Part shown: positions 27 through 22,773 of the stretch, one piece after another
How positions within the stretch are numbered: the first letter of the stretch is position 1
How the letters are laid out: every line of letters begins with the position of its first letter
NCBI GenBank assembly: GCA_001789205.1
Contig: MFYT01000090.1
Span: forward strand, 1 to 28,374
Length of the DNA stretch: 28,374 nucleotides
Source: Candidatus Raymondbacteria bacterium RIFOXYA2_FULL_49_16
Lineage (GTDB): Bacteria; Fibrobacterota; OXYB2-FULL-49-7; XYB2-FULL-49-35
Direction of reading: 5' to 3'
Notes under the pieces: generated by a model
Database searches by the model: none
Seen by the model: only the letters and a program-made list of their open reading frames with translations
What the model was told of the DNA's origin: nothing
Translations under genes and position numbers: made by a program

Positions 27-215
27 ATGCGGAGAGAGGAAAACGGGGGGGCCTTTATCGAATACCGGAAAGAAATGCGCCCTGCATTCGCCGGTGAAAA
101 TTATGTGTACTGGAAAAAGCAAATGCCTATCAATTTGCCGGATAGGCCACGGTCACCGGGCCGTCTCGTACGTAAGGACGCCTTTCATGCAATAGAGGCC
201 TGTATGCAAGAATGA
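27..215 (+). CDS. Possible 62-aa hypothetical protein
   Basis: This is a small open frame with a strong AGGAGG ribosome-binding site at 11-16. I do not recognise the product. It is rich in Arg, Lys and Pro and has no signal peptide or membrane helix. The only support is the ribosome-binding site and the absence of a competing gene. It could equally be chance in the 3' part of an upstream gene that lies mostly outside the window. Confidence 0.2.
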   Translation: MRREENGGAFIEYRKEMRPAFAGENYVYWKKQMPINLPDRPRSPGRLVRKDAFHAIEACMQE

Positions 216-248
216 CGCCCTTACATCCCCGCACTTGAACGCCCTTCC

Positions 249-6043: not shown

Positions 6044-6431
6044 AAATTTACCTTAGGCACGGCTTTTATCCAACTGATAGACTTTCATTTTCAGAAAAAC
6101 AAGGTATTTAGACGATATGATAGTAAAATAGCCCTTACAACCCGCGAAAACAAGCGAAATAAATAAGCATATCTCCCGGCAGCGCTGATAGAATATTTCA
6201 GTCTGCAAGAAAAGATAAGGAGCTTTACACTTGATTTCGGGACTATGAAGGGATATTTTATCTAAAAGCAGCGTGAAATCGAAATTTTTTTTAGCCCGGA
6301 AGACCAAGACTGGGGGCCCGCCTCGCGTCGCCGCAAGGCGAGGCGGGGGCAATATCAAATGCCGGAACCAAATTCGCCTTGCAGGCATCAACGAATCATA
6401 TCACGAACCGGAAAATCAAAATGCTTATCAA
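6044..6431. other. 388 bp intergenic, hairpin only
   Basis: No supported gene lies here. A 112-codon - frame at 6053-6391 is mostly the translation of a GC-rich palindrome plus A+T-rich DNA and has no ribosome-binding site. The region contains the hairpin at 6317-6347 and, next to the ATPase stop codon, the second copy of the 16-bp direct repeat (6418-6433). The A+T-rich stretch next to 6044-6130 probably holds the promoter of the GLUG gene, but I cannot place it. Confidence 0.55.
6317..6347. repeat. REP-like GC-rich palindrome
   Basis: CCCGCCTCGC (6317-6326) and GCGAGGCGGG (6338-6347) are perfect ten-base arms around an 11-base loop. No T-run follows on either strand, so it is not a typical terminator. 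The CGCCTCGCG core resembles the inner part of the coding palindrome at 9516-9566 (AGCCTCGCGCTAGGCGAG). The two may belong to one repeat family. Confidence 0.6.
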
Positions 6432-9350: not shown

Positions 9351-10925
9351 TCATTTAACCAGCGTGATCACCTTGGTCAGGTTCTTCGCGCCAATTTGCG
9401 CTCTGACAACATAGGCCCCGGATGGCTGCGCAGAAGCGTCCCAGGTCGCCTGTCCATTGTGCAACACCAAACCTGCAATGATTCGGCCGTTGGTATTATA
9501 AATAATTGCCTGCAGGGGCGTATTGCCAGTCTCGCCTAGCGCGAGGCTTGGCGGGCAATACGCGCCAACAGCATTAATTCCCACAGAAATCACAACGGTC
9601 GGATTAAACGGATTCGGCATAACGGAAATACCAGCATCAGAACCGACAGACAAAGCCCCCCAATCCTGAACGCCGACGGAATTAAATTCATCGGCCCCAA
9701 TATCGCATTGGCCGTCAATGCGGCCATGGCCGTCCCAATCGCCAGAGACCAAGCCCGGAGCGCCGCTGTTGATGGCCGCTGTTGCGTTGGATGTTAGATG
9801 CAGGTCAGCGTTTGTCCGGTTCACAAACCAATTGGTTGTCGCGTCCGACGAACTGGTCCTGCTCAGATTATTGGATATGGTGGTTACACTGCCAGAAATA
9901 TTCCCAAAAATGATATTGTTCCTGAATTCATTGCCGGTAAAATTATTTGAAAAATAGACAGCACGGGAATAGGTGGGGTCAGTGCTGTAAAGGGTGTTGT
10001 TATAGATTTTAATGTTCGTGCTGTTTTCCATTTCAATGCCAATACCTGCTCCGCGGACAATGAAGTTGTTCCTGATAAAACCACCGTTGACACAATTGGT
10101 CCCCGAAGGATTGCCATAGCTTATGGCGCGGTCGCAGCCAATAAATGTATTCCGTTCAACAATCATGTCCGTATTGGCATTTCCCGGAGACCCGCCCCAG
10201 AAAAAAATCCCTCCCCTGCCACCGCCGCTTGATCCGCGAATATTTCTGAATACGCAGTCGTGAACAACCCACGCGGTCGCATGCATGATATCCATACCCG
10301 CGATATAGTTGCCGTCTGAATCCGTTGCGTCGCTGCCGCAACGGGTGGCTGAGGGGACCTTGGTGTCTTCAAAATGGCAATATCTGATGCTGCATTGGGC
10401 CGCATTGGTTGTACCCGGCCCCTTGATCATGCGTTCGCCCACGTTTAAAAAGCGGACATTGTGCAGGACGGTCTGATCGTTGACCCCTCCCTGGAATTTA
10501 AGCGCATTGCACCTGCATTCTGTAATTGTCAAGTTCGCAATGGTTGTATTGCGTGTGTACAGGTTAATCAACTCTTCTTCAAGGTTCGCACAGTTCTCAA
10601 ATCCTCCGCCAACAAGGGCCGCAGCCGAAGGGTCGTCGGACAAGCCGCGAATAGTTACATTCGGTGAATCAAGACGGAGCGGCGCAACTGCGGCGATGTC
10701 GTACGTTCCCGGCTTCAGAACAATGACTCTGCCCGGAACCTGAGTGCGCACAGCCATATACAATTGAACAAACGTGCTGCAGATGACCGGATTAACAGGA
10801 TCGGCCATTGGCGGCACTGCCTTGCCGTCCCAAGTCGTATACCCTGAAGCCGCGTGCACCAACCAAAGCATAAGCAAAACTATGACTGCGCGCAGATTCA
10901 TATATTCATAAGGATAAGGTCGCAT
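9351..10925 (-). CDS. Secreted right-handed beta-helix protein with CTD (pectate-lyase-like fold)
   Basis: This is probably an exported carbohydrate-active or surface protein. A signal peptide (MNLRAVIVLLMLWLVHAASG) follows a short leader. A pectin-lyase-like beta-helix runs from about residue 60 to 400. It starts with 'PGRVIVLKPGTYDIA' and has many N-containing turns (ENSTNIKIYNNTLYS, FRNNIIFGN). It closes with the CDIGADEF motif typical of choice-of-anchor Q proteins. The CTD is MPNPFNP, IYNTNGR, ATWDAS and SGAYVV. No catalytic residues are assigned. I chose ATG 10925 with GGAGA upstream; TTG 10934, which overlaps the response regulator stop, and ATG 10901 are alternatives. The CTD contains a palindromic DNA insertion (9516-9566). 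Confidence 0.85.
   Translation of the reverse strand: MRPYPYEYMNLRAVIVLLMLWLVHAASGYTTWDGKAVPPMADPVNPVICSTFVQLYMAVRTQVPGRVIVLKPGTYDIAAVAPLRLDSPNVTIRGLSDDPSAAALVGGGFENCANLEEELINLYTRNTTIANLTITECRCNALKFQGGVNDQTVLHNVRFLNVGERMIKGPGTTNAAQCSIRYCHFEDTKVPSATRCGSDATDSDGNYIAGMDIMHATAWVVHDCVFRNIRGSSGGGRGGIFFWGGSPGNANTDMIVERNTFIGCDRAISYGNPSGTNCVNGGFIRNNFIVRGAGIGIEMENSTNIKIYNNTLYSTDPTYSRAVYFSNNFTGNEFRNNIIFGNISGSVTTISNNLSRTSSSDATTNWFVNRTNADLHLTSNATAAINSGAPGLVSGDWDGHGRIDGQCDIGADEFNSVGVQDWGALSVGSDAGISVMPNPFNPTVVISVGINAVGAYCPPSLALGETGNTPLQAIIYNTNGRIIAGLVLHNGQATWDASAQPSGAYVVRAQIGAKNLTKVITLVK
9516..9566 (-). repeat. In-frame palindromic element inside the CTD of the beta-helix protein
   Basis: GCGTATTGCC (9518-9527) and GGCAATACGC (9554-9563) form perfect ten-base arms. 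A second inner stem CTCGC/GCGAG (9531-9535 / 9541-9545) lies in the loop. In the coding direction the left arm encodes V-G-A and the right arm T-P-L. The extra peptide (AYCPPSLALGETGN) sits between the first two strands of the CTD, where CTDs of neighbouring proteins are shorter. Confidence 0.75.
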
Positions 10926-10930
10926 GGTAT

Positions 10931-11632
10931 TCAATTCTCTCCAGTAGGGCTGGTATCCAGCATATACCCGTATCCTTTGACTGTCTTGAGAATACTCTTT
11001 GCCCTGCCCATTTTTTCGCGCATACGGGTAATATTCACATCCACAACACGTTCGTCAACTATTGTGTCCATGCCCCATATTTTTTCCAGGATCTGGATCC
11101 GGTCAACAACAGAATTGCGGCTGCTGTACAGGCATTCGAAGATGGCAAACTCTTTGGGGGAAAATTCGACTGGTTTTTCCTCGACCGTGATTTTGTGGCT
11201 GTTAAAATTGACCGTCAGACCATGCGCGCTAAACACCGCCTCACGTGTAAAACCCATTGATCGTTTGAGCAGCGAATGGACACGGGCGATTAATTCCTTC
11301 ACTGAAAAAGGCTTGGTCACATAATCATCGGCCCCCAGATTAAAACCGATAATTTTGTCCACTTCCGTGGCCTTTGCCGTAAGGAGAATGACCGGGAGTT
11401 TTGCCGTGCGCTTGTTCTCTCTGACTGACTGGAGAACTTCAAGTCCGTTCATGCCCGGCATCATGAGGTCTAAAATAACAAGGTCGATCCGTTCGTCCCA
11501 AATGATTGATAGCGCAGCCTCACCATTGCCGGCAGTCAGAGCCTTTAATCCGTCTTTTTCAACATGAAAACAGATCAGATCGCGGATATCAGCCTCGTCA
11601 TCGACAACGAGTATGCAGGGTACTTGGCTCAT
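10931..11632 (-). CDS. Orphan OmpR/PhoB-family response regulator
   Basis: This 233-aa two-domain regulator has a receiver domain at residues 1-120: acidic pair D11/D12, phospho-acceptor D55 in LVILDLMMPG, T85 and K107 in VTKPFS. A winged-helix DNA-binding domain at about residues 130-228 ends in VVDVNITRMREKM and VKGYGYML. It should bind DNA after phosphorylation by a sensor kinase. No histidine kinase is present in the window. Its position inside the cluster, 20 bases after the LarA homologue and overlapping the candidate TTG start of the beta-helix gene, implies co-transcription with metabolic and secreted genes. Such a layout is unusual. The partner kinase must be elsewhere. Confidence 0.93.
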   Translation of the reverse strand: MSQVPCILVVDDEADIRDLICFHVEKDGLKALTAGNGEAALSIIWDERIDLVILDLMMPGMNGLEVLQSVRENKRTAKLPVILLTAKATEVDKIIGFNLGADDYVTKPFSVKELIARVHSLLKRSMGFTREAVFSAHGLTVNFNSHKITVEEKPVEFSPKEFAIFECLYSSRNSVVDRIQILEKIWGMDTIVDERVVDVNITRMREKMGRAKSILKTVKGYGYMLDTSPTGEN

Positions 11633-11652
11633 ATTGCAGCCTATAATATACG

Positions 11653-12924
11653 TTAATAATTGTCTGAAGAAAAAAGCGGGAGCAGGTCGCCAGCCTTCCG
11701 CAACACCATGATGGTCGCCTCAGGCCCTTTTATTTTCATGGCGCTGTTGAGCGCCTCCTGCGCAGTAGTGGCATGCAAAAAACCAAGCCGCACAGCATCT
11801 GAGGGTTGCACACCAGATGAAATCAGGAAGCCTTTACCCCGATCGGCAATGACCTCGCTTGCCTGGATCATATGCGCTGCAACGCTCTTATTGAACAACC
11901 CCTGTTTCATCATGCGTTCAACTTCAGCGACTGGATGATACCCGTATTCAAGCACTTCCGGATGGCTCATGGAAACACCTTCAGGACACGAGGCAACCTG
12001 AATGACAATGCCGCCATCTTTCATGCATATTCCTGCAGGCGTGATCGCTTTGATAGCTTGCCAATATTCAATGTCCGTACCCCATGAATCAAAGATTACT
12101 ATATCTGCCTGGGCCGGGATCTGTACGCCATAGTGCCGCCGTACCAGTTTGCACCCTGCCCTGTGCGCGGCAACAGGATGGCCGGCAACCATGTCCAGAA
12201 CATTGCCCTCAAGGTCTGTTATTGCGTTCACAATGTAATCGAGTCCTGCTTTGAGCGCCACCTCGTCGATTATCGCACGCACTGGATTCTCCTCGTGGCC
12301 GTATAAATCGCACGGACGTATGCCGTACATGGTCCAGTGCATGTCTCCGCAGGTTGCCTCGCCCGTAATACCAGGCACCACAATCTTGCCGCCGCCGGAA
12401 AAACCCGCGACCGCATGGGGAAAAATACAGCCAAGGCCGATAATATGATCCGCCCACCGGGCCTCTTTGTTCACGTATATAGGCAGGCCCGATGAAGTTG
12501 TCGCGGCCAGGTATAGATTTTCAAGCTCTTCCCAATTATGATTGACAACCTTAAAACGCCGCATGGCCTCGGGTCCAAGCTTGGCCGCCAATTCACCCTG
12601 GGTCATCTTTCTATGCGTACCCAAGCTCATGAGGATTCGGATATCAGTATCAGGAATACCTGCTGCTTCAAGTTCCGTGAGAATAGAGGGAAGAATGCGA
12701 TGCACAGGTGTTGGCCGGGTATTGTCATCAGCCAGCAGGAGCACATGTTCCCCACGCCTGGCAAAATCGCGCAGGCAAGGCGCACCAACCGGATGGCTGA
12801 TTGCCCAGGCAATACTGTCCTGCTCAGATTGGCTGCTATGCGGCCTGGCTTCAAAAATACCCAGCAGGTTCTTGTCCGGTATCTCTATTGATCCGGCGAA
12901 TGCATAGGGAAATGTATAATGCAT
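11653..12924 (-). CDS. LarA-family (DUF2088) nickel-pincer racemase/epimerase homologue
   Basis: The protein is 423 aa, the same size as lactate racemase LarA. LarA uses a nickel-pincer nucleotide (NPN) to racemise 2-hydroxy acids by hydride transfer. The expected residues are all seen: DDNTRPTP with D67 and R70, H104 in LGTHR, H170 and the NPN-linking K180 in IFPHAVAGFSGGGK, H196 as Ni ligand, and Q289/K292. The residue matching LarA Tyr294 reads as Trp288, so the substrate may differ from lactate. The start at 12924 forms a TAATG overlap with the upstream gene, hence coupling. An in-frame upstream ATG (13017) would only translate that gene's CTD in another frame. LarB, LarC and LarE, which make NPN, are not in the window. 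Function is by family; substrate unknown. Confidence 0.88.
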   Translation of the reverse strand: MHYTFPYAFAGSIEIPDKNLLGIFEARPHSSQSEQDSIAWAISHPVGAPCLRDFARRGEHVLLLADDNTRPTPVHRILPSILTELEAAGIPDTDIRILMSLGTHRKMTQGELAAKLGPEAMRRFKVVNHNWEELENLYLAATTSSGLPIYVNKEARWADHIIGLGCIFPHAVAGFSGGGKIVVPGITGEATCGDMHWTMYGIRPCDLYGHEENPVRAIIDEVALKAGLDYIVNAITDLEGNVLDMVAGHPVAAHRAGCKLVRRHYGVQIPAQADIVIFDSWGTDIEYWQAIKAITPAGICMKDGGIVIQVASCPEGVSMSHPEVLEYGYHPVAEVERMMKQGLFNKSVAAHMIQASEVIADRGKGFLISSGVQPSDAVRLGFLHATTAQEALNSAMKIKGPEATIMVLRKAGDLLPLFSSDNY

Positions 12925-14834
12925 TATTTCATTAAAATTATCGATTTGGTCAGGACCTTGCCCCTGATATGCGCCTGGACAATATAGAGGCCCGATGGCA
13001 TGTGGGATGCGTCCCATGAAACCCGGCCATTGACCATCTGTTTTGATAAATCCGTGATCATCCGGCCGGAAATGGTATATATGGCTACATGTAAGGGCGT
13101 CACGCTTACATTGTTGCCCTCAATATTGCGTGACGCCCCTACGGAAATCACAACGGCCGGGTTAAACGGATTCGGGCTCGCTGCAATTTCCGGTCCGGAA
13201 CCGCCCGTACGGACAGCCTCGCTGCCCAACGAACTGTCTTCTTTTACATGATACGCATGGACCGCCGGTTCCCTGTCAAGAGCAAAGCTGCAATACACGT
13301 ACATAATCCTGGTCTGCGGATCAAAGCAGGCGCCAGATACGGAATGATACGTTGCGGTATTGCTGACCGGGTATGGCCAATCGATTTTTACAAACGATGA
13401 CGGTTGAACGCTTCCCAAAGCCTGGTTGCCCAAAGCGGCATCTCCCAGTTCCTTGAGATCATAGAAATACCAGTCGTCCTCATAATGGTAATCAACACCA
13501 ACGCCGCCCCAGTCGTATCCGATCCGGCCGGTCGTATGCCTCACAAAGGCGACATACCCTTTCTTGTCAGGAAGATCGATAAACACACCTGTTGCGCATG
13601 TGCTCCCGGAAGTGAATCTGCCGTCCCAGGGGCTGGGGGGTTGATAAATCCAGATAGTTGTATTGGCGAGAAAATAATTGCCGTTCCTGACAGCGGCCTC
13701 GGGATAGATATACCTGAGTACCTCGACCAAATCAAGGGTATCCTGTAATATATCAGGCTTTTGTATGGCCGCAATTGCAGGCCCGCTGCTTGCAGTCTGA
13801 CAAATACTGTAAATACCCCCAAACCCCAATGCCAAGTCCCTGCCACCAGTATAGGTATCAGCAAATGTTTTCGGAATATGCGTAATCCCCCTCCAGTACG
13901 CCTTCCAGAGGGGTACCTGCGGCATATACCAGTACTTAAGGTTTGTAATTGTGCCGTCATCTGCAAGCCTGGTGGCAGCAAGCACTGGAAATGGGCTGCC
14001 CGCATAATACGAATTACAATGTGTCCAGTAAAGGATATTAGTACTGTCGTCCCACCAAAAGCCGCTGTTCGCGGTTATATTCTCTCCTCCAATGGCGCTG
14101 TCCCAGGCAATGGTCGCCCATTGTTTAATAAGAGCGGCTGTATTGAGCGTAGAATGGTTAGTTCCCTCAATTTTTTCAAGCTGCGGCATTTCCACTTCAT
14201 ACAAACACTGAGTATAGGTACCTGTATTCAAAAAAAACCTTTTGGATCCATCGGGCATAGTACGCAACGCAAGCCCGCTCGCTACATATGCATGGTCATA
14301 GCTGGCCACGGTTGGTAATTTGAAGGAACCAATGTATTCAAAATCAGAGGAATCGAGAAGCGAATCCACGTGTTGGGGAGGAGGCGGAGGCGTTTCCAGC
14401 CGTTGTTGTACGTATATGCTCTCCGCGGGCACGATTTCTCCAAAAAGCTGACCAACTGTTTTATGATAACACTGCCACGCAAAGGCCCATTTCCCCGGTG
14501 TGGATGGCGCCCTCAGATTGGAGGTAAAATTAAAGGTGTCGCCAGGAGCAAGAGAATCCCCATGGTGTTGAAGAATGAAATATGTTCCCCACGTATAATT
14601 GTTTGCAGGATACTGGGAATGCATCAGGATATCCGCTATTGGCCAAGCAGTGTCGCCCGTATTTCTCATGCAGATAACCGCGGGAAAAATCTCGTCCGTG
14701 GTCAGGGTCTCGGGAATGACGCACCGTACGAATTGGGCGTCATAGGCCGCATTCACGGAAACGGTCGCCATCATGATAAACATCAAACAAAACATGCGCA
14801 TGGTTCTGTTTCCCTGCTCTGATATTTTCTTCAT
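12924..14834 (-). CDS. Secreted protein: Ig-like (NBR1-type) domain, probable propeller and CTD
   Basis: This is about 636 aa from ATG 14834, which has GGGGG just upstream; ATG 14870 (no ribosome-binding site) and 14801 (AGGGA upstream) are alternatives. A signal peptide ends near VSVNAAYDA. An Ig-like domain follows (about residues 20-125), resembling the NBR1 central domain: MRNTGDTAWP, SLAPGDTFNFTSNLRAPSTPGKW. After a PPPPPQ linker comes a long region with propeller-like strands (FEYIGSFKLPT, then GYVAFVRHTTGRIGYDW). The CTD has SPNPFNPAVVISVG, IYTISGRM, VSWDAS and SGLYIVQA. No catalytic motif was recognised. It starts 22 bases after the upstream propeller gene and its stop overlaps the LarA start. 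Its CTD contains a palindromic insertion (13091-13142). Confidence 0.8.
   Translation of the reverse strand: MKKISEQGNRTMRMFCLMFIMMATVSVNAAYDAQFVRCVIPETLTTDEIFPAVICMRNTGDTAWPIADILMHSQYPANNYTWGTYFILQHHGDSLAPGDTFNFTSNLRAPSTPGKWAFAWQCYHKTVGQLFGEIVPAESIYVQQRLETPPPPPQHVDSLLDSSDFEYIGSFKLPTVASYDHAYVASGLALRTMPDGSKRFFLNTGTYTQCLYEVEMPQLEKIEGTNHSTLNTAALIKQWATIAWDSAIGGENITANSGFWWDDSTNILYWTHCNSYYAGSPFPVLAATRLADDGTITNLKYWYMPQVPLWKAYWRGITHIPKTFADTYTGGRDLALGFGGIYSICQTASSGPAIAAIQKPDILQDTLDLVEVLRYIYPEAAVRNGNYFLANTTIWIYQPPSPWDGRFTSGSTCATGVFIDLPDKKGYVAFVRHTTGRIGYDWGGVGVDYHYEDDWYFYDLKELGDAALGNQALGSVQPSSFVKIDWPYPVSNTATYHSVSGACFDPQTRIMYVYCSFALDREPAVHAYHVKEDSSLGSEAVRTGGSGPEIAASPNPFNPAVVISVGASRNIEGNNVSVTPLHVAIYTISGRMITDLSKQMVNGRVSWDASHMPSGLYIVQAHIRGKVLTKSIILMK
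13091..13142 (-). repeat. In-frame palindromic element inside the CTD of the Ig/propeller protein
   Basis: GTAAGGGCGTCACGC (13091-13105) and GCGTGACGCCCCTAC (13128-13142) are 15-base arms with one mismatch around a 22-base loop. In coding direction the ends again encode V-G-A and T-P-L, the same frame and the same CTD position as the element at 9516-9566. The inserted peptide is SRNIEGNNVSV. Confidence 0.8.
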
Positions 14835-14856
14835 ATTGCCCCCAAAACAAATTGCA

Positions 14857-16377
14857 TCACATGATAACAATTTTAAACTTTTGTACCTTCATTCCTGACC
14901 TGTTCTTCATGACGGCAAAATAAGTGCCCGAAGGCACGGTATGGCCTGCTGCGTCAGAACGGTTCCAGACAATCCGCTGCATTTTTGGCCCATTATTGCG
15001 CCATTCTTTAATTATTCTCCCCTGCACATCATAGAGAACAATTGCATAACCTGTTTCTATCCCCTGTGCGGCAATGACAATGTTGCCGGTTGCTGAAGGA
15101 TTGGGAGAAACGAAAAGCGTCCAGGTACCAGGCGCAGGAATACGGGAAACATCTCCCCGCGTTGAAGTTGAATCAGAAATATCCGTTGGTTCCGTCACCT
15201 CTGTACCATTCCAGAACCCATAGAGGCATCCATCAGTGGCCCCGATAACAACCCTGCCATTGCTTACCGCAGGAGAAGCGCTTATTGCTTTGCCTGAAGA
15301 AGGCATATATGACCAGAGCGAAGTTCCGCCAAAGGTAGTTGAAGATGTCTTGCTGAAAAAATTGATCTTCCCGCATTCGGACCCGAAAATAACGCAATTG
15401 CCGATAACCGCCGGGGATGAATTCACCCCATAAATACCATCGAAGGGGTAATCAGAATAATAATCGGTCGTATTCCAATTACGGGGGGCGCCCAGCACGA
15501 AAAGTCCGTTCCGGGTAGAACCGATAAACAGTACGCCGTCCGCTGTATCTACCGACAGACAAGCGCGTGATATCGAAGAGGTAATTCTGCCGATCATGCT
15601 GCCCGTATTAAAACCAAATTTGAATACTCCTGTGAAATCGGTCAGTAGCTCCACCTCCCCTTTAGCAAAAAAGATGGTATCGTTCCAGATCATAGGTGGC
15701 ATAAATGAACAGATGCTGGGACCGAGAGTTTTAATTGACACGTTCCTGATCTCATGATACGACGCGCCGCTGTCGGCCAGCCATATCGCATGCTGATCTC
15801 CATCGGTAAAAACGATCTGCCCCTCTTTTTCGCATGCCGCATGAACAATGGCCTGGTCTGCCTGATAGCTCCATTTGAGGTTTCCTCCCCTGTCAAAAGC
15901 ATAAAAAATGCCGTTTATCGCGCCTACATAGATACCTGTGGGCAGTAGAAGTAAATCCGCGAGAATAGAAGAGCCTGTATTAAAAGAATTGATAATGGTT
16001 CCGTCTGAACCGCGTATCACATAGAGCATTCCGGATTGCGTAGCGACCCATACCGTGTCATTTTCCGTTGCCGGCGCACTTACATTGCCAATGCCGCTTA
16101 ATGGTTTATGCCAAAGAATCGCGGCATTTGCCAGATCAACACACGCAAGAATACCTTGTGAGGATATAGCATACGCTTTGTTGTTCGCAATAATCGGGGA
16201 AGCCTCAACGGGTGAACCGAAATTGACCCAAAGGCAAAGCGTTGAAGGCAGTTGCACAGTCTCGTTCAGATTGCATCCTTGCCTGTTCGAAGTCCTTTTA
16301 AACTGTGGCCAGTCACTGCCAAAAGCGCAGAGAGAGAAAAAAAAGGCATATAATAGCAATAGTAATAATCTGATCAT
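14857..16377 (-). CDS. Secreted PQQ-type beta-propeller protein with CTD
   Basis: This 506-aa protein has an N-terminal signal peptide (MIRLLLLLLYAFFFSLCAFG). A beta-propeller of PQQ-like blades follows: SPIIANNKAYAISSQGILACVDLANAAILW, then three or more blades of the type APATENDTVWVATQSGMLYVI and SPAVSNGRVVIGATDGCLYGF. It ends in a variant CTD (SPNPSATGN, VLYDVQGR, SGTYFAV) with a short K-V-Q-K-F-K-I-V-I-M tail instead of the usual KxxLxK ending. AGAGGGTG lies five bases before the ATG. Such propellers often serve in protein or ligand binding rather than catalysis, and no PQQ-binding catalytic residues are claimed. It sits 14 bases after the next propeller gene, so the two are almost certainly co-transcribed. 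Confidence 0.85.
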   Translation of the reverse strand: MIRLLLLLLYAFFFSLCAFGSDWPQFKRTSNRQGCNLNETVQLPSTLCLWVNFGSPVEASPIIANNKAYAISSQGILACVDLANAAILWHKPLSGIGNVSAPATENDTVWVATQSGMLYVIRGSDGTIINSFNTGSSILADLLLLPTGIYVGAINGIFYAFDRGGNLKWSYQADQAIVHAACEKEGQIVFTDGDQHAIWLADSGASYHEIRNVSIKTLGPSICSFMPPMIWNDTIFFAKGEVELLTDFTGVFKFGFNTGSMIGRITSSISRACLSVDTADGVLFIGSTRNGLFVLGAPRNWNTTDYYSDYPFDGIYGVNSSPAVIGNCVIFGSECGKINFFSKTSSTTFGGTSLWSYMPSSGKAISASPAVSNGRVVIGATDGCLYGFWNGTEVTEPTDISDSTSTRGDVSRIPAPGTWTLFVSPNPSATGNIVIAAQGIETGYAIVLYDVQGRIIKEWRNNGPKMQRIVWNRSDAAGHTVPSGTYFAVMKNRSGMKVQKFKIVIM

Positions 16378-17657: not shown

Positions 17658-20171
17658 TTACCTCATGAGTACCAGCTTCTTCGTGATGATTCTGTTGCCT
17701 GCAACAGCCTTGACTATGTACATTCCCGAAGACAGGCGGGAAGCGTCCCACTGCACAGAACTCTGTGCCGCTGATTTTCCATTCCTGACATTGCTGGTCA
17801 AATCTGCGACTATTCTGCCATTTGCATTGTATATGCGCAGGCTTTTTACACCGTGTCCATTTAACATGATTTGGACAGAGGGATTGAACGGGTTGGGGAA
17901 TGCGTCAATGGATGTTACGGTGGACAGGCGCGGTTCCACGCCGGTTGTAATGCAGGTATTGCAGGAAAGTTTCAGTGTTCTGTGCGTCTTTGATAAGGCA
18001 ACCTGCGGGACCGTGACAATCCCGTTCTGGTCTGCTGATGTGGTTCCGCTTGCAATCACGGTAACGCCTTCGTCCAGCTCCCATGCATATGTGGAGCCAG
18101 CACCGTGCTCAAGATTTTGAATCCTGCGGGGAGTAACATCCACGCTGGCTGTGGCCGCAGGGCTGGCAGCATCGAGCCACATGGTCATTTCCCAGCGGTC
18201 AGACTGGTCAACAATAGTGGTATAGTCCCACAGAAAATATCTGTTATAATCACCAACAGAATCGAGCTGTCCGGCTGCCATGGGAAGTACGCCATTATCT
18301 GACGCATTGGTAAATGCGGGAATGGATGTGTGCAATCCCTGTTTGAGATGGTGGTATACGGATGTGGTCTGATGGCCCTGGTGCGCCCAATGGAAATTTT
18401 GTGGCCTCTTCGTGGCGACCATGGTGTTAAGATTGAGGATTGCCTGGGGCCAGCCAATGCCACCGTCATTCACGCCATTGCTGAAACTGATATACGGCGT
18501 TTCCACGGCCGGATTTGCCGCAAGCCATTTGGTGTTGTCCCAGTAGTCCCAGACATTGTAGCTGTCGGCTGCCGTAATGACCGGATACCCGTATTCCTGA
18601 AGTATTTCGCTTGAATAGTTGACATTCCAGGACGTATCCCCATATACCCCGATGAACGAACTTGTGTAGGTGGGCGACATTCTCGTTATATGGACGCCAA
18701 CATACGAATTTAAGCTCCTGAAAATATGACCGCTCCGCATTCCCCACATGGACGCGCCCGACCCGCCCATGGACTGCCCGCCTGCCATGATGCGTTCGGT
18801 GTTGATATTGTATTTGTCTTTCATGAACTTGAAGACAAAATCAAGATAACGTTTCGCCGTAAAAGGCTTGACTGTCCCGTCTTCGAATCCCTTAATGGTC
18901 CCGTAATTCTCATTGCATGCTGTCCACCAATCCCAGGGATCCTGGTTTGTTGACACGAAAATGCCGGAATCCGGATAGTTTGCCCATCGCGCCCAGCAGC
19001 CATTAATACTGCCGCCCCAGCAATGCAGCGCCATATACAGCGACGGCGAATCTGAAACCACCGCAGGTATGGCCACAAGATAATCAACCGCATGACTGGG
19101 AGTCATATAAGCAGGATAACAGTCCCATTTGACGTAGTATTCAAGATTAATATTGCTCTTGTAGTCAAAGCTTGTGTTCAAAATGGTCTCGCGCAGCACC
19201 ACGCGGCCTGGTCCAGGAGACTCCTCCACTCCATTGGTAACATTATTTCCGGCGACAAGCGAGGAAAAATCCTCGGCGCCGTCAACAGACCGGCTGATAA
19301 AATAATAGGCGCTTTCGGGTGCGGTTTCCTGAAAACGGTTCACGTAGATGCCGGTCGCCACACCTGCAAGCACGCCATCGTCCACTGGAAGGCGTTTAAC
19401 TCCCTTGGCATTGTCACAGTATTGGTTGAGGCCATAGTAGTTGGGGTCCCATCCGGAAAGCGGGGTTTTTTCATCGACGAATTCAGCATTGAGAAGCGAG
19501 GATTCGGTGATGGGTGATGTTGAACGGTATATACGGTATCTTATTTTTTCAACATTACCGGTCCAATCGCCGGATGATGAGCTGTTGAATCTGCTTGCTA
19601 TGGTCCCGTAATCGCACCAGAGAATATTGGGATCTTTGATAAAAGAATCAATTTCCGTGAATGTGATCATGGCATCGCCGTCCTGGAATACGGCAGCTGC
19701 GTCTGTAACTTGCGTAATGGCGGCTTGCGCGGGCTGGTCGCACATGACATCGAGCTGCAGCATCTCGCCCTGGCCAGCAAGACCCGCTGCGTTAACGACA
19801 AGAAGCGTGCATGGCGTACCGCTGACAAGCGCTGCCTGGACCGGCGCTGTTGCATCAAATGACACAAAACGCGGTCCGATAATTTCGAGCGTATCGCCGG
19901 CAGTGCTGGTTAAAAGCATAGATTTGCGCGAATATGCGCCTGCCGGATATCCACCCGAACTGCCTCTCTGACGATTGGGACAAAAGATCGCCCTATACGC
20001 TTGTGCACCGTAAATGGACGAAAGATTGATGATTATTTTACCGCTGCCATAGGTAAGCGTGCTGGGATGGCTGCCGCGCAAAGCCTTGTTGGTAAAACTA
20101 TGCGTTGATAAAGCAGCTGTTGAAAACGATACCAAAGCCGATACCAAGATGGCGGTAATGATTGTTCTCAT
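17658..20171 (-). CDS. Secreted alpha/beta-hydrolase (putative esterase) with CTD, paralogue 2
   Basis: This 837-aa secreted protein probably acts as an esterase on an external substrate. GGGAGG lies six bases before the ATG. After a signal peptide (residues 1-19) an N-terminal beta-rich region of about 330 residues contains a conserved 'SFTNKA.RGSHPSTLTY' start. The hydrolase domain has the nucleophile elbow GQSMG (Ser467), a likely acid Asp569 (NGVNDGGIGWPQ) and catalytic His near 597-600 (HQGH). The C-terminal CTD reads FPNPFNPSVQ, IYNANGR, WDASRLSSGMYIV. A short palindrome (17753-17768) encodes an extra SAAQSS in that CTD. It is a tandem paralogue of the 844-aa protein upstream, with the same architecture. 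Substrate unknown; feruloyl, acetyl-sugar or polyester esters are all possible. Confidence 0.82.
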   Translation of the reverse strand: MRTIITAILVSALVSFSTAALSTHSFTNKALRGSHPSTLTYGSGKIIINLSSIYGAQAYRAIFCPNRQRGSSGGYPAGAYSRKSMLLTSTAGDTLEIIGPRFVSFDATAPVQAALVSGTPCTLLVVNAAGLAGQGEMLQLDVMCDQPAQAAITQVTDAAAVFQDGDAMITFTEIDSFIKDPNILWCDYGTIASRFNSSSSGDWTGNVEKIRYRIYRSTSPITESSLLNAEFVDEKTPLSGWDPNYYGLNQYCDNAKGVKRLPVDDGVLAGVATGIYVNRFQETAPESAYYFISRSVDGAEDFSSLVAGNNVTNGVEESPGPGRVVLRETILNTSFDYKSNINLEYYVKWDCYPAYMTPSHAVDYLVAIPAVVSDSPSLYMALHCWGGSINGCWARWANYPDSGIFVSTNQDPWDWWTACNENYGTIKGFEDGTVKPFTAKRYLDFVFKFMKDKYNINTERIMAGGQSMGGSGASMWGMRSGHIFRSLNSYVGVHITRMSPTYTSSFIGVYGDTSWNVNYSSEILQEYGYPVITAADSYNVWDYWDNTKWLAANPAVETPYISFSNGVNDGGIGWPQAILNLNTMVATKRPQNFHWAHQGHQTTSVYHHLKQGLHTSIPAFTNASDNGVLPMAAGQLDSVGDYNRYFLWDYTTIVDQSDRWEMTMWLDAASPAATASVDVTPRRIQNLEHGAGSTYAWELDEGVTVIASGTTSADQNGIVTVPQVALSKTHRTLKLSCNTCITTGVEPRLSTVTSIDAFPNPFNPSVQIMLNGHGVKSLRIYNANGRIVADLTSNVRNGKSAAQSSVQWDASRLSSGMYIVKAVAGNRIITKKLVLMR
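17753..17768 (-). repeat. Short palindrome inserted in the CTD of esterase 2
   Basis: GCACAGA (17753-17759) and TCTGTGC (17762-17768) are perfect arms with a two-base spacer. The DNA around it encodes SAAQSS, absent from the corresponding CTD stretch of the paralogue (NGHAVWDAS versus NGKSAAQSSVQWDAS). Confidence 0.6.
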
Positions 20172-20238: not shown

Positions 20239-22773
20239 CTATTTCACGAGGACGGCCCTTTTCACCAGCACCCTGTTGCCCGCCACAGCTTTTATCATGT
20301 ATATGCCGCTAGGCAGCTTCGAGGCATCCCAAACAGCGTGTCCATTAACCAAGTGCGGTGTCATATTCTCGACCATCCGGCCGTTGATATTGTAAATCTG
20401 TAATGACACGCGACCGTGCATCCCTGACACGAAAAGCATTGTGCTCGGATTGAATGGATTTGGCGTCACCCGCAGTTCAGGAATGCCAACATCCGCTGCT
20501 GCGGCAGCGCTGCCTGCAACACAATCGTCACAGGTGATCTTAAGGGTGCGATGCGTTTTTGACAGGGTTAATCCGGGAATGGTGATAAGGCCATCCACGT
20601 CAGCAGTGGTATTGCCGCTCGCAATTACCGTCGCGCCTTCGTCCCATGACCATGTGTAGGTTGACCCAGCGCCATGCGTCAGCTGCTGCAGGCGGCGCGG
20701 CGTGATGTCCACGGTTTCAGTGGCCTGCAACGCGGCGCTGATGAGCCACAGGGACATTTCCCATTGCAGGGGTTCGTCGACCACGGTGGACACGTCCCAC
20801 ATGACATAGGCGTTACTGCTGCCCACGGAGTCGTGGCCCCACGGCACCGTACCCAACGAATCATCAAGCGATCCGTTGGTAAGCGCGGGATACGACTGGT
20901 TCTTGCGGAAATCCAGGTCGCTGTCCCGTTCGTTCAGGTGCCCGAGTACAATCGCGCGCGTGCTATGGGCGTGTATGTCCCAATTGAAATTGTTTCCACG
21001 CTTTGTGGCAATCATGGCCTTGGCGTTTTTCCAGGCCTGGGGCCAGCCTATGCCGTTGTCGTTCGTGCCGTTGCAATTGGACATCCACGGCGTCTCGACT
21101 GCGGGATTTGCCGCAAGCCACTTGGTATTGTCCCAGTAGTCCCAGACCTCAACGCTGTCTGCCCTGGTAATAAGCGGGTATCCGAACTGCTCCATCTGCG
21201 GGTTGGAAAAGAGGCAGTGCCACGACGTATCACCGAAGCTGCCGATAAATGAACCGGTATACGTCGGTGATTCCTTGGGGATATGCACGCCGACCCAGGA
21301 GATGAGGTGCGAGAAAATATGGCCGCTTCGTATGCCCCACAGGGACGTGCCTGACCCGCCCATGGAGCTGCCCACAACATGGACGCGCTCAACGTCGATA
21401 TTGAATGCGGGAACAGCGAAGTAATAGAGAAACGACAAATACCTGGCCTCGGTGAAAGGCTGGACCGTACCGTCAGCAATAGACTTTATGGTTCCGTTAT
21501 TTTCGTGATACGCGGTCCACCAGTCATAGGGAAACTGGTTCGTGGAGATGATCAGTCCTCCCTCATTTGCCCTATACCACCACCCGTAACAGGCATTGAT
21601 GCTGCCACCCCAGCAGTGAAGCGATATCTGGGCCATGGGTTTGGGCCGTTTTACATTCGACGGCACACCCACCAGATAGTCGTAGGGAGAACTGGGCATA
21701 TTGTTGTAGGGCGGCGCTTCCCAACGAACGTAATAGTAAAGCGTGCAATTATTCACATACATAAAGCTGACATTGCTCTGGACCTCGCGGAGCAGGACCA
21801 TGCCTGGCCCGCTTGTTTCAACAACGCTATTGGTTGCGTTTGCACCTTGGGTAAGCGTGGAAAAGTCCTCAGCCCCGTCAATGGTATGACTCACGAAATA
21901 AAAAAAAGTCTCGCTGCTGGCGCCTTTGTACCGGTCCAAATATATGCCCGTGCCCGGCGTGGCAAGAACAAGGCTGTCAACCGGATACAATGGCACGACC
22001 TTGGTCCCTGTACAGTTGCCTGAACCATAGTAGGGCGCGTCCCAACAAGTGAGTGGCTTGATCTCGTCCACGAGTTGGGCCGCGGCAAGAGCGCCTTCTG
22101 AAATCAGCGGCTGCGTTGACCGGTAAATGCGGTACCGGACCTTCTCCATGGCGCCAGACCAGTCTGCGCCAGTACTGGAGGTAAAACGCGCGTTATATTC
22201 AGTATTATATTGATCGCAGGTTATAGAGGAAGAGGTGAAGATTGGGTCGACCTCCCTGAAGGTGATCATGGCATCACCATTATTGAAACGGGCCGCTGCA
22301 CTGTCTACCTGTGTGATCGGAGACGCTGCGGCCTGGTCGCACATGACATCAAGGGAAATCATTGCGCCATCGCCGCCAAGGCCTGCTGCATTGGCAACAG
22401 TCAATGTGCAACGCGTGCCCGCGGCGCCAAGAGTAGCCTGGATTGCTGCAGTGGCATCGAGCGTACGGTATCGTGGGCCTATTACCTCAAGCGTATCGCC
22501 CGCCTTGGAGATAATGATCATGTTCTGCATTGCATATGTTTTATCAGAGGACGCTCCACTGTTGCCGTAACGTCTGTTTGGGTCGAGGATGGCGCGGTAC
22601 ACGGTTGCATTGCTTATCGCGGAAAGGTCGATGATTACCCGTCCGCTTGAATAGGTCAGAGTGCTAGGATGGCTGCCTCGTGAGGCTTTGTTGGTAAAGC
22701 TGTGCGTTGACAGCGCTGCCTGCAAAAGTGAGGCAAATACCAAAACCACGATAACCGTAATACTTGTTCTCAT
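20239..22773 (-). CDS. Secreted alpha/beta-hydrolase (putative esterase) with CTD, paralogue 1
   Basis: This 844-aa protein is the first gene after the AraC regulator. AAGGGTGG precedes the ATG. The signal peptide covers residues 1-19. The N-terminal beta region starts with SFTNKASRGSHPSTLTY. The hydrolase domain has the nucleophile elbow GSSMG (Ser470) and the acid Asp572 (NGTNDNGIGWPQ); the histidine is near 601-603 (HAHS). The CTD is TPNPFNPSTM, IYNINGRM, HAVWDASKLPSGIYMI, and the last residues are KRAVLVK. It is clearly a paralogue of the 837-aa protein: GGSGxSxWGxRSGHIF, AANPAVETP and VDxTPRRxQxLxHGAGSTYxW are shared. The active-site triad is conserved in both copies. Function is by fold; substrate unknown. 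Confidence 0.82.
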   Translation of the reverse strand: MRTSITVIVVLVFASLLQAALSTHSFTNKASRGSHPSTLTYSSGRVIIDLSAISNATVYRAILDPNRRYGNSGASSDKTYAMQNMIIISKAGDTLEVIGPRYRTLDATAAIQATLGAAGTRCTLTVANAAGLGGDGAMISLDVMCDQAAASPITQVDSAAARFNNGDAMITFREVDPIFTSSSITCDQYNTEYNARFTSSTGADWSGAMEKVRYRIYRSTQPLISEGALAAAQLVDEIKPLTCWDAPYYGSGNCTGTKVVPLYPVDSLVLATPGTGIYLDRYKGASSETFFYFVSHTIDGAEDFSTLTQGANATNSVVETSGPGMVLLREVQSNVSFMYVNNCTLYYYVRWEAPPYNNMPSSPYDYLVGVPSNVKRPKPMAQISLHCWGGSINACYGWWYRANEGGLIISTNQFPYDWWTAYHENNGTIKSIADGTVQPFTEARYLSFLYYFAVPAFNIDVERVHVVGSSMGGSGTSLWGIRSGHIFSHLISWVGVHIPKESPTYTGSFIGSFGDTSWHCLFSNPQMEQFGYPLITRADSVEVWDYWDNTKWLAANPAVETPWMSNCNGTNDNGIGWPQAWKNAKAMIATKRGNNFNWDIHAHSTRAIVLGHLNERDSDLDFRKNQSYPALTNGSLDDSLGTVPWGHDSVGSSNAYVMWDVSTVVDEPLQWEMSLWLISAALQATETVDITPRRLQQLTHGAGSTYTWSWDEGATVIASGNTTADVDGLITIPGLTLSKTHRTLKITCDDCVAGSAAAAADVGIPELRVTPNPFNPSTMLFVSGMHGRVSLQIYNINGRMVENMTPHLVNGHAVWDASKLPSGIYMIKAVAGNRVLVKRAVLVK

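Follow-up and report, generated by a model that had tools for sequence, protein, structure and literature searches.

Two genes in the window (the whole stretch of DNA analysed, 28,374 nucleotides) carry a palindrome inside the part that encodes a C-terminal sorting domain (CTD), and the question is what these palindromes are and how they came to lie there. CTD loops are probably tolerated and recurrent sites for the in-frame insertion of repeats, copies of which spread further via CTD exchange. The host domain of the inserts is the T9SS type A C-terminal sorting domain (PF18962/TIGR04183), of which the genome holds several hundred copies. The features of the window are collected in Table 1; other loci are given as contig (C) and position.

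Table 1. Features of the window that bear on the two palindromic elements
Feature	Position	Strand	Description	Evidence
Family A intergenic copy (GTAAGGGCGTCATTC...)	171..227	minus		nhmmer E=1.8e-9, 37.1 bits
Element 1	9510..9571	minus	nested palindrome, CTD beta1-beta2 loop of beta-helix gene	
Beta-helix protein CTD	9351..9614	minus	weak match	PF18962 E=0.001, TIGR04183 E=0.0028
Element 1 host gene (beta-helix)	9351..10934	minus	ten paralogous bodies compared	
Element 2	13091..13142	minus	52-bp palindrome, CTD beta1-beta2 loop	inverted-repeat calls, folding, AlphaFold2 loop position
Ig/propeller protein CTD (T9SS type A sorting domain)	12924..13172	minus		PF18962 E=1.4e-7, TIGR04183 E=1.5e-7
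Element 2 host gene (Ig/propeller protein)	12924..14870	minus	paralogue family member	
Esterase CTD, insert-free	17658..17894	minus	short loop	
Esterase CTD, insert-free	20239..20460	minus	short loop	

Element 2 consists of two 15-nt arms, GTAAGGGCGTCACGC and GCGTGACGCCCCTAC, which are 93% complementary (14/15 bp, GTARGGGCGTCACGC) and enclose a 22-nt spacer, and its folding z-score is -5.5 against dinucleotide shuffles. The coding (minus) strand reads GTA GGG GCG TCA CGC AAT ATT GAG GGC AAC AAT GTA AGC GTG ACG CCC TTA C and gives the peptide V-G-A-S-R-N-I-E-G-N-N-V-S-V-T-P-L, the codons running from the end of CTD strand 1 and ending ahead of strand 2. The host CTD, the C-terminal ~75 residues of the protein, exceeds the cut-offs of both profiles. 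An AlphaFold2 model, built with only the CTDs of this window, predicts a beta-sandwich fold (mean pLDDT 79.5), in which low-confidence residues 30-37 lie between strands at 22-29 and 44-48, and the palindrome-coded residues lie in this low-confidence loop. The best PDB match of the model is the mirolase CTD (TM 0.66), the NucA CTD is also in the top four, and the closest solved folds include the CTDs of mirolase (8qb1), NucA endonuclease (8glk) and RgpB (5ag8).

Element 1 is not the same palindrome as element 2; its core is GC-rich and B-like. It has 31-nt arms that are 74% complementary, a strictly paired core at 9518-9563 with outer sequences GCGTATTGCC/GGCAATACGC, and an inner palindrome CCAAGCCTCGCG..GGCGAGACTGG; it tops the ranking of inverted repeats in the window and has a folding z-score of -2.9 (vs dinucleotide shuffles). 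Its core, CCGCCAAGCCTCGCGCTAGGCGAGACTGG, is similar to a B-like insert at C39:71525 (peptides PPSLALGETGN and PPRLTLGEAGE). The profile match of the beta-helix CTD is below the cut-off because the insert interrupts the domain, and an element-1-like insert is absent from all ten paralogous bodies examined (bodies 42-60% identical). The preliminary description had placed the two palindromes at the same position and in the same frame of the CTD, and this holds: both are confirmed inverted repeats in the beta1-beta2 loop, read in the same frame. It had also noted V-G-A from the left arm and T-P-L from the right arm in both elements. These peptides are indeed present, but the two V-G-A stand at different alignment positions and are not equivalent, because in element 1 the native strand-end I-S-V-G comes first and is followed by I-N-A before the V-G-A of the arm. 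The esterase CTDs were correctly described as lacking the element, since their loops are short and hold no such palindrome. Beyond the long open reading frames, at 6317-6347 of the window, there is a hairpin CCCGCCTCGCGTCGC/GCAAGGCGAGGCGGG that is similar to the B core.

The exact arm of element 2, GTAGGGGCGTCACGC, has three occurrences across the 5.43-Mb genome, each in a CTD loop (the window, C26:63673 and C79:9831), and the three CTDs with A-type CACGC inserts include one attached to an unrelated body. In a tree made without the loop, carriers are interspersed among non-carriers, and one 14-tip CTD clade (support 0.795) takes in all four carriers, whether the palindrome is of the A type or of the element 1 type, so they could go back to one old insertion followed by losses. 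Other, shorter palindromes occupy the same register in this clade, namely GTAGGGGTTCAAAATTTTGAACCTCTAC in C43 (13/14), GCAGGGGTGCGATGCATTGCGCCCCTGC at C15:84381 (12/14) and those at C26:52408 and C46:1288, which favours a loop that has been rewritten repeatedly rather than one fixed insert. C39:21370 appears to hold a shortened copy (ATAGGGGCGTCA..CCCTTGC). The arms of the carriers retain 13-15 complementary bases, while identity in the CTD DNA downstream has dropped to 67-74%; ACG/ACA/ACT changes in the right arm are synonymous and break the pairing. Full-length paralogues of the element 2 host gene lie on C102, C26 (two), C15, C39, C1 and C23, and the search outside this genome gave no full-length relative of its product, only weak CTD-sized matches. 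No empty site with clean insertion boundaries was found.

The arms had been likened to a form seen in dispersed palindromic repeats. This is true insofar as palindromes that share the outer 12 nt are found elsewhere, but that GTAGGGGCGTCATTC family is intergenic and the exact arm is confined to CTDs. The family, designated A (GTARGGGCGTCATTC...GAATGACGCCC), matches as a pattern at 31 places in the genome, including the CACGC copy of the window, and as a profile it hit 48 sites within the 1.25 Mb sampled, of which 44 are intergenic; it has at least 45 dispersed, essentially intergenic copies, whose first bases match the outer 12 nt of element 2. No copy lies in a CTD loop at E<0.01 (profile search of the 1.25 Mb sampled), and the profile score is borderline for element 2 (E=0.039) and E=6.8 for a further carrier, so that a REP origin of element 2 is not proven. 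GTAGGGGCGTCA is common to family A and the arms of element 2, and these shared ends suggest common descent, with a profile score of only E=0.039; direct derivation of element 2 from family A was rejected on that score and because no copy in a CTD reached E<0.01. Of 99 further genomes from the phylum, 98 lack the family A pattern, and the lone match (G099) has different arms and looks like chance. Tandem clusters of family A with periods of ~40-97 bp were seen at C54:36735-36909, C20:42-956, C95:26451-26789, C11:8800-8936 and C85:17928-18106.

A related palindrome, A2 (GTAGGGGCGGGTTTGAAACCCGCCCCTAC), stands on both sides of a RAYT-like open reading frame (C107:15580-16666), and one A2 copy lies in frame within it, read VGAGLKPAPT. 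The loop of C39:139457, with an A2-like GGGGCGGGTTTATC..GGATTACCCGCC, contains GGGGCGGGTTT, which it has in common with the palindrome flanking the C107 gene. Four Y1_Tnp genes were found, none flanked by A or by the subtype of element 2. An unpaired GTAG end at the hairpin was not seen, the GTAG pairing with the opposite end of the palindrome, and the first 15 of 134 literature matches for GTAGGGGCG are unrelated.

Two further repeats are concentrated in CTD loops. Palindrome B (TTCGCTCGCRAAGCGAGGCGAGCG) has 11 genomic copies at up to 3 mismatches, ten in CTD loops, and is absent in 293 other genomes. Repeat C (AATTACGAATTACGAAT) occurs at up to 2 mismatches in 18 places as grouped by us, 15 in CTDs; the other three comprise one glutamate-synthase-like open reading frame and two places without a convincing one. 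B is frequently nested within C. Phase and position are the same for most of the B and C copies, and therefore many were inherited rather than acquired independently. A 50-bp B+C insert, AATTACGAATTTCAAATTACCCGCTTCGCTCGCAAAGCGAGGCGAGCGAA, is common to C39:152239 and C39:155192, whose bodies are unrelated (alignment score 37); its reading frame differs between the two (ITRFARKARRAK and KLPASLAKRGER), giving the peptide NYEFQITRFARKARRAK in one gene and ITNFKLPASLAKRGER in the other. Conserving a peptide could not produce such a shift of frame. Therefore DNA, and not the peptide alone, was inserted or copied. The proposed resemblance to the tolerated peptides of Rickettsia palindromic elements (RPEs) is borne out to this extent: the inserts look tolerated, and the same DNA is present in frame, in two frames, in the CTDs of unrelated bodies. 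At C64:123706 repeat C is in frame (NYKLRITNFK) in a linker of the glutamate-synthase-like open reading frame, which is a non-CTD gene. At C31:12624-12887 loop 3-4 of a CTD contains a B insert; an in-frame TAG follows soon (WNALG*PAGVY), and this CTD has probably decayed.

Repeat C also has an orientation. The 8-mer ATTACGAA is found forward in loop 1-2 of 14 CTDs, and in loop 3-4 only as the reverse complement, in 11 CTDs; among 196 parsed CTDs, nine have both the forward and the reversed copy and none shows the opposite arrangement (Fisher p=1e-10; examples are C16:12689, C57:20374, C21:99174, C25:3250 and C23:166364). Repeat C, with nested B, is thus forward in loop 1-2 and inverted in loop 3-4, so inverted repeats bracket beta2-beta3. 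That the CTD core could be a repeat-bounded cassette exchanged between surface proteins is very unlikely. Intragenic fold-back copying between loops 1-2 and 3-4 was considered and rejected, as the repeats of one gene match each other no clearly better than they match those of other genes.

The claim that CTD genes are a landing site is supported by the placement of B and C in CTD loops, which make up ~0.8% of the genome, and by an excess of inverted repeats. The statistics come from 1.25 Mb of the 5.43-Mb genome, taken as stretches and biased to CTD regions, with a crude caller of open reading frames (at least 80 codons) that overcalls genes. In this sample the density of inverted repeats is 1.45/kb in CTD loop 1-2 and 1.72/kb in intergenic DNA, compared with 0.30/kb in other open reading frames, 0.29/kb in the CTD framework and 0.28-0.29/kb for a mirror-repeat control. 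Loop 1-2 has 10 inverted repeats against 2.05 expected (p=6e-5), and 8 remain when both window elements are removed (p=0.001). A folding z-score at p<=0.01 was obtained for 11 of 150 loops and 2 of 150 C-terminal windows (Fisher p=0.02), the signal being due to a minority of the loops. In addition, GGGGCGTCA occurs 4 times in 6.9 kb of loop 1-2 and 18 times in 1131 kb of other open reading frames. By loose patterns, repeat-derived loops (beta1-beta2 or beta3-beta4) are present in 25 of the 196 parsed CTDs (~13%).

It had further been suggested that the elements help to shuffle CTD cassettes between genes, and this was not borne out. The Ig/propeller protein and six sampled paralogues have bodies that are 58-80% identical pairwise and CTDs down to 25-35% between two CTD types. 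From these comparisons CTDs are evidently swapped between paralogues, usually as whole domains and not at palindromes: the swaps replace whole CTDs, starting upstream of NPFNP, and shuffling at the element was rejected for that reason. Only one pair, formed by the CTDs of the window and of C43, whose bodies are unrelated, has an identity tract that begins at strand 2, right after the loop; 21/21 bp are identical ahead of the loop region and 57/58 bp behind it. The palindromes in the two loops differ (52 and 28 bp) but have GTAGGGG in common on the outside; as the flanks are shared, the loop was recently changed or replaced within the shared tract. Some contigs start within ~300 bp of the 3' end of a CTD gene (C5:80, C9:93, C14:128, C79:115 and C83:296), as if repeats behind those genes break the assembly.

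The mechanism that we favour would begin with the least constrained parts of the CTD, the loops at one edge of the beta-sandwich (beta1-beta2 and beta3-beta4). Short palindromic repeat DNA would enter these loops and be kept if the frame remains in phase and free of stops, at a gain of ~10-20 residues. Repeats of several unrelated kinds would have entered, namely GTAGGGGCG palindromes of the A type, element 2 among them, the GC-rich B palindromes and repeat C, and the copies would then spread as stretches of CTD are duplicated and exchanged between genes. We infer the entry by insertion of REP-like DNA, the neutrality of the peptide and the carriage of copies between genes by exchange.

Other routes have been weighed, and for element 2 REP transposition, template switching and a single old insertion are all conceivable and not mutually exclusive. 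That one ancestral insertion into a single CTD clade was multiplied as CTDs were duplicated, and lost or shortened in most members, is somewhat doubtful: this agrees with the limitation of the carriers to one 14-tip clade, with the shortened-looking copy at C39:21370 and with the evident swapping of CTDs, but it covers the A-type carriers only, B, C, the A2-like insert and element 1 require further events, and the frame changed in one B+C copy. Movement of GTAG-type A and A2 palindromes by a RAYT (Y1 transposase), with CTD loops as survivable targets and element 2 as a diverged REP, is rather unlikely. The GTAGGGGCG termini are common to A, A2 and element 2, the RAYT-like gene has A2 at both flanks and in frame inside, GGGGCGGGTTT recurs in the C39:139457 loop and in-gene REPs are known (PMC3733652); however, at E<0.01 the CTD loops are free of family A copies, the CACGC arm in its exact form is restricted to CTDs, the GTAG is paired here and unpaired in the published families, and B and C are without a GTAG end.

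It is unlikely that the palindromes evolved in place, a weak native quasipalindrome (GTRGGG..TCCCTRC, V-G..S/P-L) being perfected by replication template switching with differing inner sequences. Template switching is a known route (PMC8794818, PMC8604942) that makes or perfects palindromes in place, and CTDs of the same clade do have different palindromes in the same register (C43, C15:84381, C26:52408 and C46:1288). Alone, however, it shares no sequence between genes, and it leaves unexplained the 24-bp step between the 28-bp and 52-bp loops, the 12 nt in common with family A and the B and C sequences in unrelated genes; the loop 1-2 and 3-4 repeats of one gene match no clearly better than those of different genes. 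Selection on the hairpin or the peptide (as mRNA structure, regulation, recombination site or binding loop) is extremely improbable: the complementary arm bases retained beside diverged downstream DNA speak for it, but the synonymous changes that break pairing, the lack of the insert in most paralogues and the low confidence of the AlphaFold2 loop speak against it.

That REPs occur within genes is established, as are RPEs (PMC3733652, PMC10969869). The GTAG and CGTC REPs inside genes are in frame and add 20-30 residues, and loops or linkers were suggested as their neutral sites (Di Nocera 2013, PMC3733652). The present elements resemble them as short in-frame palindromes in genes, with alternative complementary stem bases and a RAYT-like gene flanked by repeats (here A2); they differ in that the GTAG end is paired rather than unpaired, and in that the CACGC subtype, like B and C, is concentrated in the loops of one domain family rather than in diverse genes. 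RPEs, ~150 bp long and found in unrelated metabolic genes (PMC10969869), are alike in behaviour only, as in-frame palindromic DNA of several families that gives a tolerated peptide in unrelated genes, whereas the inserts described here are ~28-65 bp and lie in two loops of one domain family. In the literature searched there was no report of repeat-filled CTD loops, nor of several repeat families that meet in a pair of loops of a secretion-tag domain. Intragenic repeats are as a rule seen scattered over many proteins, but here several converge on two loops of one sorting domain. CTD loops are therefore a natural insertional scan of where the T9SS signal tolerates extra residues and a possible site for peptide display, and the CTD system offers a way to follow short repeats as they spread between paralogues by exchange.
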